Below, piece by piece: positions 35,947 to 39,044 of a DNA stretch of 64,000 nucleotides. The notes below the pieces were generated by a model, which made no database searches, was not told the DNA's origin, and saw nothing but the letters and a program-made list of their open reading frames with translations. The translations under genes and the position numbers were made by a program. Source of the DNA: Prauserella marina. GTDB taxonomy: Bacteria > Actinomycetota > Actinomycetes > Mycobacteriales > Pseudonocardiaceae. Position 1 is the first letter of the stretch. Every line of letters begins with the position of its first letter. The DNA is taken from the NCBI RefSeq assembly GCF_002240355.1, contig NZ_CP016353.1, forward strand, positions 1,538,501-1,602,500. Direction: 5' to 3'.

Positions 35947-36002
35947 AAGCGCGATCGACCAGTCCGGCGATCGGTACGTCGCGCGGGTCGTAGGCTGGTG
36001 GT

Positions 36003-36860
36003 ATGCCCGTTCGTGCCCCATTGCAGTCAGGTGTCCAGGCGCCGCGCCGCGCGGTCCCCGCTTCCATCGCGCGTCCCGAGTACGTCGACAAGCCAGCGCC
36101 CAAACGGGACACCGGCAACGGCGTGCGGACCCCCGAGGTCATAGAGGCCATGCGGATCGCGAGCAAGATCGCGGCGCAGGCGCTGGAAGAGGGTGGCAAG
36201 GCGGTCAAGCCGGGCAACACCACCGACGACATCGACAAGGTCGTCCACGAGTTCCTGATCGATCACGGCGCCTATCCCTCGACGCTGGGCTACCGCAACT
36301 TCCCCAAGTCGTGCTGCACCTCGCTCAACGAGGTGATCTGTCACGGCATCCCCGACTCGACGGTGATCGAGGACGGCGACATCTGCAACATCGACGTCAC
36401 CGCCTACATCGGCGGAGTGCACGGCGACACCAACGCCACCTTCCTCGCCGGTGACGTCTCCGAGGAGGCGAGGCTGCTGGTGGACCGCACCCGCGAGGCA
36501 ACGGCTCGCGCGATCAAGGCGGTGCGTCCAGGCAGGCAGCTCAACGTCATCGGCAGGGTCATCGAGTCCTACGCCAAGCGATTCGGCTACGGCGTGGTGA
36601 GGGACTTCACCGGGCACGGTGTCGGCCCCGCCTTCCACACGGCGCCGACGGTGCTGCACTACGAGGAGCCCTCCGTCGACACGGTGATCGAGCAGGGCAT
36701 GACGTTCACGATCGAGCCGATGATCACGCTGGGGACCATCGACTACGACGTGTGGGCCGACGACTGGACCGTCACCACCAAGGACAAGAAGTGGACGGCC
36801 CAGTTCGAGCACACCATCGTGGTGACCGAGAGCGGGGCTGAGATCCTCACGCTGCCCTGA
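36003..36860 (+). CDS. map: Methionine aminopeptidase, type I with N-terminal extension
   Basis: Removes the initiator methionine from new proteins; cobalt/iron-type metalloenzyme. The 285-aa protein has the five metal ligands: D in [12 protein letters not shown] in GDTNATF, H in FTGHGVG, E in FTIEPM and E in QFEHTI. The ~40-residue Pro-rich N-terminus ([18 protein letters not shown]) matches the MapB type of actinobacteria, which may dock on the ribosome. Only 6 bp separate its stop from a 167-bp palindromic element. Confidence 0.95.
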
Positions 36861-36866
36861 CCTGGG

Positions 36867-37033
36867 CTAGGGCCTGTCTGACAATCCCGTTGCCCGCTGC
36901 GCGGGGTCAGCGTGGCCCCTCGCCGCGTTGTCGGAAAGCCCGAGTACGACCCGGTACGAGGACTTCCCTCCGCCTTGCGAGGAACCACGCTGATCCCCGC
37001 TCGCACGGCAGAGGATTGTCAGCCACGCCCTAG
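36867..37033. mobile_element. MITE-like long imperfect palindrome
   Basis: Terminal inverted repeats 36867-36887 and 37013-37033 match at 19 of 21 positions (CTAGGGC..TGACAATCC). The interior is also an imperfect palindrome, for example GCGGGGTCAGCGTGG near 36900 against CCACGCTGATCCCCGC near 36986. There is no ORF. The ends CTAGGGCCTGTCTGAC resemble termini of IS5-type elements, so a non-autonomous derivative is likely. It fills the gap between the convergent map and GntR genes and its right end supplies the GntR stop codon. It could act as a two-way terminator. Confidence 0.7.
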
Positions 37034-37713
37034 TCGTATTCCTCGCTGCCGCGCGCGAGCAGTTCGTCGAGGAAGCCGCATGCCTCGGCGGCAGCGCGGT
37101 CGGCGTCGCCGTCGATGATCGCGGCGAGCAGGTCGTGGTGCCCGATCGACTCGGTCTCCGCCGGTTCGGTCCGTGTGGTGGCCGCGACGCTCGCCGTCAC
37201 CACCTCGGTCAGCCCCCGGTACAACTCGGCGAGCAGGGTGTTGTGGCTCGCCTCGACGACGGCGAGATGGAAGTCCGCGTCGACGCGCACGTAGGTCTCG
37301 TAGTCCTTCGCCAGCCACGCGTCGTCGCGTTCGCCGAGTAGCCGGGTGAGCTCTCGCACGTCGGCGTCGGTCCGCTGGGTCGCGGCGAGCCTTGCGCCCT
37401 CGGCTTCGAGCGGCTTGCGTACCTGGAGCACTTCCCTCAGTTCCGTCCCGCACATCTTGCGGACCGCGCCGGACACCTCGCTGGTGGCTCTGACATAGGT
37501 GCCGTCGCCCTGCCTCACTTCGAGCAGGCCGCCGTGTGCCAGCGCGCGCACCGCCTCGCGGACGGTGTTGCGGCCGACCTCCAGTTCGGCGACGAGTTCC
37601 GGTTCGGTGGGGATGCGCTCGCCGACCGGCCATTCCCCGGTCCTGATGGCTTCCGTGAGCTGGCCGATGACCTGGTCGACCAGGCCGGATCGACGAGTGC
37701 TCGCCAACGGCAT
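37030..37713 (-). CDS. GntR family regulator (FadR/FCD subfamily)
   Basis: 227-aa regulator with an N-terminal winged helix (IPTEPELVAELEVGRNTVREAVRALAH in two overlapping parts) and a C-terminal all-helical FCD ligand domain with the metal-type residues D and H (YVRVDADFHLAVVEASHN, HHDLLAAI). It is divergent from an MFS transporter gene 50 bp away, which is the obvious target; the regulator probably senses the transported compound. The TAG stop lies inside the inverted repeat of the palindromic element. ATG at 37713. Confidence 0.9.
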   Translation of the reverse strand: MPLASTRRSGLVDQVIGQLTEAIRTGEWPVGERIPTEPELVAELEVGRNTVREAVRALAHGGLLEVRQGDGTYVRATSEVSGAVRKMCGTELREVLQVRKPLEAEGARLAATQRTDADVRELTRLLGERDDAWLAKDYETYVRVDADFHLAVVEASHNTLLAELYRGLTEVVTASVAATTRTEPAETESIGHHDLLAAIIDGDADRAAAEACGFLDELLARGSEEYD

Positions 37714-37738
37714 CTCTACGTCCTCTCAACCGATCATC

Positions 37739-37758
37739 CTACCTTTTTGTTAGGGTAG
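37739..37758. promoter_or_regulatory. Candidate GntR operator
   Basis: CTACC (37739-37743) and GGTAG (37754-37758) form an inverted repeat around an AT-rich 10-bp centre (TTTTTGTTAG) directly before the MFS start. Symmetry and position fit an operator for the divergent GntR regulator, but the arms are only 5 bp. Confidence 0.4.
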
Positions 37759-37763
37759 CCGAC

Positions 37764-39044
37764 GTGGCTGCTGATCGTGGGACATCCGTCGGTGACAACG
37801 TGAGCACGACGCTCACCGATGTCACCGACGCCGACGTCTCCGGCTCCGGGGCCGCTCGTGACACCCGCCTCCGCGGCAGGGCGCTGTTCGGCGGCGGGCT
37901 GCTGCTGGCCGTTGCCGTCGTACTCGCGGCCCTCAACCTCAGGCCCTCGATCACCTCGGTCGGAGCCGTCCTCGACGAGATGCGGCTGACGCTGGGTGCT
38001 CCCGCCGCGTGGGCGAGCGCGCTGACCACGCTGCCCGGCCTCTGTTTCGCCGTCGCCGGTCTCGCCGCTCCCGCGCTGGCAAGGCGGATCGGTCTGAACG
38101 CGGCCATCGGCACGGCGCTGGCCGTGCTCACCGCCGGTCTCGTGCTGCGGGTCGTCAACGGGCCGCTCGTCGTCCTCGGCGGCACACTCGTGGCCAGCGC
38201 GGGTATCGCGCTGGCGAACGTCCTCATCCCGGTCGTGGTCAAGGCGTCCTTCGCCGCGCGCATCGGATTGATGACCGGCATCTACACCGCCGCGCTCCAG
38301 ACCGGCGGCGCGCTCGGTTCCTCGGTCACCCCGCCGGTCGGCGACGCGCTCGGCGGCTGGCGATTCGGGCTCGGCGGCTGGGCGGTGCTTGCCGCCGTCG
38401 CGCTCGTGGTGTGGATCGTGGCGACGAGGACGATCCCGGGACGTCCCAAGCTGTCGTCCGGCTCGGTCACGCGCGGCCGGTCGTTGCTGCGCAGTCCGCT
38501 CGCCTGGATCGTGACCCTGTTCTTCGGCACCCAGGCGTGCTTCGCCTACATCATGATGGGCTGGCTGCCGCAGGTACTGATGGACGCGGGCGTGACAAGG
38601 ACCTCGGCGGGATTCATGATGGGCCTCGTGTCGCTCGTCGGGCTCCCGGTGAGCCTGCTGGTTCCGCCGCTCGCCGCCCGCAGGGGAGGGCAGAGCTGGT
38701 GGATCGTCGTCCTCGGCGCGTTCGGTGTCATCGGTATCACCGGGCTGATGCTGGCGCCCTCGGCTGCGCCGCTGCTGTGGTCGGTGCTCGCCGGTATCGG
38801 CATGAGCGTCTTCTCACTCGCCATCACCACGATCGCGCTGCGGGCCCGCACGAGCGAGGACACGGCGACGTTGTCCGGTATGGCACAGGGCCTCGGCTAC
38901 TTGCTCGCCGCGGCCGGCCCGTTCGCCTTCGGGGTGCTGCGGGACGTCACGGGAGGCTGGACCGCGTCGTTCGCGCTGCTGCTCGTCGTGGTCATCGGCC
39001 AGATGGTGTTCGGCTGGCTGGCCGGCCGCCCCCGCTACGTCTGA
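37764..39044 (+). CDS. MFS transporter, CynX/NimT type
   Basis: 426-aa membrane protein with about 12 hydrophobic segments. LAALNLRPSITSVGAVLDEM and TLPGLCFAVAGLAAPALARR near the N-terminus are typical of the CynX/NimT (cyanate and nitroimidazole-type) group; the substrate is unknown. A ~35-residue hydrophilic N-terminus precedes the first segment. GTG start at 37764, 50 bp from the divergent GntR regulator. The last 10 nt overlap the convergent mtr gene. Confidence 0.88.
   Translation: MAADRGTSVGDNVSTTLTDVTDADVSGSGAARDTRLRGRALFGGGLLLAVAVVLAALNLRPSITSVGAVLDEMRLTLGAPAAWASALTTLPGLCFAVAGLAAPALARRIGLNAAIGTALAVLTAGLVLRVVNGPLVVLGGTLVASAGIALANVLIPVVVKASFAARIGLMTGIYTAALQTGGALGSSVTPPVGDALGGWRFGLGGWAVLAAVALVVWIVATRTIPGRPKLSSGSVTRGRSLLRSPLAWIVTLFFGTQACFAYIMMGWLPQVLMDAGVTRTSAGFMMGLVSLVGLPVSLLVPPLAARRGGQSWWIVVLGAFGVIGITGLMLAPSAAPLLWSVLAGIGMSVFSLAITTIALRARTSEDTATLSGMAQGLGYLLAAAGPFAFGVLRDVTGGWTASFALLLVVVIGQMVFGWLAGRPRYV

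Follow-up and report, generated by a model that had tools for sequence, protein, structure and literature searches.

A hairpin core common to MITEs with unlike ends, and the likely IS5-type insertion of one such element at the gntR stop codon of Prauserella marina

IS5-group elements are said often to have characteristic ends and to insert at TA or CTAG sites. The pneumococcal BOX, RUP and SPRITE elements are small repeats that are over-represented between convergent genes, and BOX forms the 3'-end stop codon of 36 coding sequences with no strong evidence of truncation in the part of the source study on which we draw (PMC3049150). BOX is thus a clear precedent for stop codons supplied without truncation, so that this part alone of what we describe below is not new. 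For prokaryotic MITEs in general, the sections used of a review name short length, terminal inverted repeats, multiple copies, lack of coding capacity and a mostly intergenic position as shared traits, and its main text holds 0 occurrences of Streptomyces or actinobacteria (PMC10969869). A search of the literature that covered PMC3049150, PMC9208149, PMC3119063 and PMC10969869 in the parts used, and that had the IS database and most subscription papers outside its scope, gave no description of a MITE family with the core described here.

The window (the whole stretch of DNA that was analysed, 64,000 nucleotides of the Prauserella marina chromosome) contains a palindrome between the convergent genes map and gntR that the first-pass annotation had read as MITE-like (Table 1). 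Its description held in detail: the 21-nt ends (36867-36887 and 37013-37033) match at 19/21 positions, i.e. with 90% complementarity, and carry CTAG on both sides, while the interior is itself palindromic with an inner inverted repeat (36903-36923 and 36977-36997) that is 86% complementary. The distance to map and the location of the gntR stop codon inside the right CTAG were likewise correct (map TGA at 36858-36860; gntR TAG on the minus strand at 37032-37030). The element is as short as expected of a MITE and encodes no ORF of at least 80 aa; it has no transposase of its own because 161 bp cannot hold one. Model R1 of the hairpin core found a single place in the window, with a weak opposite-strand echo of 26 bits at the same spot.

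Table 1. Parts of the MITE copy between map and gntR and the two flanking genes (positions within the window).
Feature	Position	Strand	Remarks
MITE copy as first delimited, CTAG at both ends included	36867..37033	.	167 bp
Element proper	36870..37030	.	161 bp between two TA dinucleotides; putative borders, from copies with differing outer four bases (CTAG/CTAA) and constant TA
Left TA	36868..36869	.	Putative target duplication
Right TA	37031..37032	.	Putative target duplication and two bases of the gntR stop codon
Left terminal inverted repeat	36870..36887	+	Family form GGGCGTGTCTGACAA, as at the ends of the IS in L363
Right terminal inverted repeat	37013..37030	-	From inverted-repeat search
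Asymmetric hairpin core	36907..36996	+	Conserved, common to elements with other ends; model R1 109 bits; alignment A1
map (methionine aminopeptidase)	36003..36860	+	Name from first-pass annotation; stop TGA 6 bp before element; 80 relatives at 75-93% identity
gntR-family regulator gene	37030..37713	-	Name from first-pass annotation; stop TAG putatively target TA plus terminal base of the element

The element belongs to a multi-copy family. A BLAST search of the host genome for other copies gave 29 matches (E<=0.001), far beyond chance, 12 of which cover 150 or more of the 167 bases at 77-100% identity, and the end pattern TARGNCGTGTCTGAYRA occurs 44 times with at most one mismatch as compared to 1 occurrence of a reversed control. 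Among 100 genomes searched (the host included), 23 are matched by the window MITE, and 65 of 81 copies with defined edges are 165-170 bp long. None of the 80 map loci of other genomes carries a copy by BLAST (best E 0.23), so the palindrome is neither without other copies nor present at this place in all relatives. The host also has several shortened copies, about 40-84 bp long, that kept the ends and miss the core (L141, L144, L146 and L150), which shows that the core is dispensable for the persistence of a copy, be it lost before or after insertion.

Some loci of the host depart from this general picture. At L143 (G000:C1:5699970-5699986), a single family end, with an incoming gene's stop codon at its edge, lies beside a different hairpin (GGCCCACGTAC...GTACGTGGGCC), possibly as a recombinant or decayed copy. 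L120 has its edge on the stop codon that ends an IS481-type transposase gene, and the last flanking stretch of L145 is nearly identical to that of L120; we view these two as nested mobile elements. A phage origin of the MITE was rejected on the grounds that two different family members gave no match in 50,697 phage records and that the strict core pattern occurs in none of the viral contigs, despite one viral contig with a full Streptomyces-type copy (L265).

A full insertion sequence (IS) with the same ends was found in a genus mate and, with the transposase queries used, not in the host. On contig C35 of genome G003, two TAGGGCGTGTCTGACAA copies, identical to the ends of the window MITE family, face each other across a span of 946 bp (L363) and enclose an IS4/5-type transposase encoded in two overlapping reading frames, with matches to PF13340 (5.4e-25), PF01609 (1.6e-17) and PF13586. 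The earlier proposal that the element is non-autonomous, of IS5 type and targeted to CTAG is borne out by the many copies, the shared ends and this PF13340 plus PF01609 IS. Streptomyces copies end in TAAGGGCTGTCCCGTAA and have a partner of a different IS5-family kind, 873 bp long (L271), with the domains PF13613, PF13359 and PF01609 and a match to NF033581 below its cut-off. A partner transposase inside the host itself was searched for and not found, neither with the profiles PF13340, PF01609 and PF13359 nor with the Streptomyces IS5-type transposase protein as query, which has matches in 41 of the 100 genomes searched. Ten of 50 loci with related transposases (L275-L282, L285 and L286) have ends of the MITE-family kind in CTAG, and the others have mostly different ends or none. 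The hairpin core gave no significant match in 16 IS-bearing loci (best E 1.4), and we rejected it as a part of the partner ISs. We take the ends and target of the MITE to fit a DDE element, having also considered a REP/RAYT system with its Y1 (RAYT) transposase.

The target could be reconstructed for 53 copies selected for TA at both edges and reads CTAG in 40, TTAG in 6, CTAA in 3 and otherwise in 4 cases. At 125 TA-edged ends, the first base of the element is G (84) or A (41) and nothing else, so TA followed by this base makes TAG or TAA. Where a copy is bordered by CTAG on one side and by CTAA on the other, a duplication of four bases is excluded for that copy and one of TA fits; only TA appears to be duplicated upon insertion. 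The G of the gntR TAG would then be the element's own terminal base, i.e. the stop codon was probably rebuilt by the insertion. In the stretches compared of the genus mates, gntR is not beside map, and the exact empty site of the window copy was not encountered. In Amycolatopsis jejuensis (L053), one of the 80 relatives, one CTAG contains the overlapping stop codons of map and gntR, a site of precisely the sort that the MITE prefers.

With a probability of about 0.88, we read the palindrome as a non-autonomous IS5-type MITE that was put into the CTAG holding the gntR stop codon by the transposase, acting in trans, of an IS with the same ends. This transposase would come from an IS of the kind seen in the genus mate, and insertion into the CTAG would have duplicated TA alone, after which the terminal A or G of the element together with TA would make TAG or TAA again; the order of these events is part of the proposal. 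At a CTAG common to two convergent genes, both stop codons could be rebuilt in this way. An insertion that rebuilds the stop codon would cost the gene nothing, and since CTAG is rare in high-GC genomes, surviving chromosomal copies would be expected to gather at the 3' ends of genes.

When the chromosomal sets are pooled, an incoming gene has its stop codon exactly at one or both edges in 59 of 92 scorable copies, with genes called by GC-frame and not by a trained gene finder. These comprise 13/23 hand-edged host copies (5 at both edges; one edge codon is TGA), 16/27 copies of relatives and 30/42 copies of the class (7 at both edges). As a control, 155 CTAG sites in 605 kb of DNA (the 80 map loci and the window minus the element, mostly from other genomes than those of the copies) lie at stops in 37 cases, inside genes in 54 and between genes in 64, so the fraction to compare is 37/101 sites outside gene interiors (p about 2e-7). 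Taken alone, the host set (13/23 against an expected 0.37 at CTAG sites outside gene interiors) falls short of significance (p 0.08). The chromosomal excess at stops may come from target choice, survival or both. No excess was seen for plasmid and viral copies, with 2/16 on stops by GC-frame gene calls and some edges mis-called, nor did annotated plasmid copies exceed the background with 3/18 by the deposited, incomplete annotation (NZ_CP108024.1 near 617173 and 610094; NZ_CP109189.1 at 245583). The edges of the ISs at L269 and L271 coincide with annotated CDS ends.

How edges were set differed between these sets. The 23 host copies with hand-set edges are 20 loci minus the degenerate L133 and L134 plus five further copies, and the host count leaves out the remaining weak BLAST matches. 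The automatic edge finder, which needs TA at the edge, kept 8/16 host loci (5 with an edge on a stop), 27/40 loci of relatives (16), 29/60 of the class (20) and 17/21 from plasmids and viruses (16 with a TAR edge, 2 on a stop, at least 4 copies with mis-called inner edges). The class count of 30/42 comes from a different edge finding that gave 43/60 loci with a TAR edge, of which L375 was dropped for visibly mis-called edges. There are a number of flanking sides without any incoming gene in the host and class sets. A high-confidence incoming gene at L162 of the host reads 11 bases beyond an altered edge, and the sets of relatives and of plasmids each have one such gene that continues beyond the element's edge.

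What sets the family apart is its middle. Elements of other genera align to the window copy chiefly across a core of about 90 bp, an asymmetric hairpin that is common to elements with unlike ends. A model built from alignment A1 (model R1) detects it in 91 of 394 genomes and 29 of 138 genera of the class, the host among them, in a search that scored at most 11 candidates per genome under stricter filters, so that copy numbers there are lower bounds. The 42 cores of A1 share the near-invariant blocks GCGTTG-CGG and CCGCCTTGC, which are not mirror images of each other. Class copies whose ends are less than 45% identical have cores of 73% identity on average (154 pairs among 28 copies). For example, between the window copy and a genus mate's L190 identity is 0.56/0.63 in the ends, 0.46/0.60 in the arms and 0.89 in the core, and between L376 and L381 it is 0.39/0.33 in the ends and 0.76-0.79 in the interior; these two pairs were drawn from ten, and the cores of the other eight have identities of 0.45-0.84, the two lowest involving L391 (in opposite orientation) and 0.64 being the value of two pairs with L186, a copy that contains an insertion. 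With L376 as query against plasmids, 18/30 of the matches listed stop at positions 21 and 141-142 of its 173, directly inward of the ends.

Such a core under changing ends is odd because the needs of a transposase alone would conserve the ends and leave the middle free. We tentatively suggest, at somewhat less than even odds, that one asymmetric DNA-hairpin core has spread across Actinomycetes under many different IS5-type end pairs as a modular MITE superfamily. The core itself would be what is recognised or selected, in the form of a cruciform or a single-strand hairpin, and it would have gained new ends repeatedly for mobilisability, with insertion rebuilding the stop codons of one or both neighbours. 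Clear separate classes of ends were rejected, since single-linkage clustering at 75% identity joined 39 of 57 scored copies in one continuum; some of the end diversity may hence be gradual. A gradual divergence of ends around a constrained core is therefore an equal candidate to a swapping of ends.

Could the palindrome instead have been domesticated as a bidirectional terminator of map and gntR and be selected for that role, as the first-pass annotation had proposed? The fold check on both strands gave very stable hairpins (-99.9 kcal/mol, z -8.9, and -117.2 kcal/mol, z -10.4), with 0/200 shuffles folding as well on either strand; the two genes are convergent, and unrelated long palindromes in the same gap of several Amycolatopsis species hint that a hairpin is frequent there. 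However, the element also sits at many other loci of the genome, several flanking sides have no incoming gene, and no T-run terminator was found: a consensus scan for a GC-rich hairpin followed by a T run, with loops of 3-8 only, gave 0 sites in 36700-37200. No sigma-70 promoter was found in 36700-37200 either, and we rejected a reading of the element as a promoter or T-run terminator. Selection for termination is possible, and we would sooner bet against it; a damping effect of the hairpin on read-through between the two genes is a guess.

The map-gntR region of relatives holds repeats of its own. The long palindrome in the gap of the Amycolatopsis loci L043-L046 is of the GAAGGCCCCCTTCC...GGAAGGGGGCCTTC kind and looks like a further repeat family, and in Prauserella halophila (L062) a CAACACGGCCCCTGGAAT-like unit is repeated in tandem downstream of gntR.

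The core might also be read as a structured RNA or small-RNA module for which the ends are merely the vehicle. Its helices covary, with 125 two-sided changes in A1 against 31 in shuffles and 94.7% of cells paired; 60 further copies (49 distinct) aligned to the model (A2) gave 148 against 48.5, a covariation that leans towards the model to which these copies were fitted. The letters of its internal loop are conserved, and some inner pairs contain G-U (a constant U-G in 40/42, one pair with 13 G-U and one with 9). Helices of RNA are expected to show more G-U than the two outer ones do, where it fills 1 cell in 9 pairs x 42 sequences of A1 and 3 cells in 9 pairs x 49 of A2. Rfam 15 gave a single match in 36000-38000, below its cut-off and inside map, and none at the element. 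Given the rarity of G-U in the outer helices and the lack of an Rfam match, we set structured RNA aside as first choice and consider it unlikely. Outer helices almost without G-U point to pairing as DNA rather than RNA, and the core is under some constraint of its own, probably as a DNA hairpin.

The insertion was also said to have possibly changed the C-terminus of GntR, and this claim fails because gntR is not truncated. The window protein has 227 aa; in G002 and G003, the orthologues agree with it as far as residue 227 and have one more residue after it, and 16/16 Amycolatopsis orthologues stop within about 5 residues of the same position. Only the third genus mate G001 differs, with an orthologue that continues for 44 residues after its match. 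Among incoming proteins compared with Pfam, 15/20 reach to within 3 positions of the profile end (e.g., CorA 292/292, TetR_C_11 113/113, MFS_1 347/347 and DegT 360/360), while five (from L121, L124 and L432, the TPR protein of L126 and one protein of L427) lack such support for an intact end. NCBIfam models on the first 10 proteins gave PseI 327/327, PseC 379/380 and IS481 284/284, and PseI and PseC flank a single copy, one at each end. At 49 high-confidence sides of the class set, no incoming gene continues beyond the edge. Truncation of genes by insertion, with new stop codons including that of gntR, is very improbable: the stop codon does come from the element's edge and the G001 orthologue is longer, yet the lengths of GntR, the profile ends, the 49 class sides and the 5/23 host copies on which two convergent genes end (which thus are not halves of one gene) all speak against it. 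Genes at the edges of the element are mostly full-length.

The event at this locus, an IS5-type MITE on a stop codon, is ordinary. The family is not, given its class-wide spread, its conserved core and its changeable ends. It shows how a mobile repeat can spread in dense GC-rich genomes at almost no cost: genes seldom contain its target, and on a stop codon its ends bring back TAG or TAA. For annotators, it means that the stop codons of many actinobacterial genes derive from repeats, and model R1 is a means of finding such elements.

Among known systems, the IS5-family ISs of both types (PF13340 plus PF01609; PF13613 plus PF13359 plus PF01609) have ends in common with the MITEs, namely TAGGGCGTGTCTGACAA for the window family and TAAGGGCTGTCCCGTAA for the Streptomyces copies, and lie in the same CTAG context; the MITE differs from them in lacking a transposase and in its core, to which the IS-bearing loci have no significant match. 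The BOX, RUP and SPRITE repeats belong to another host group and are set apart by description, since a CTAG target with regenerated TAR stops does not feature in the part of the study used (PMC3049150). With prokaryotic MITEs in general, as characterised in the sections used of the review (PMC10969869), the window MITE shares its short length, multiple copies, inverted repeats, lack of coding capacity and mostly intergenic position, and it differs in that a core of about 90 bp is conserved over many genera while the ends change.
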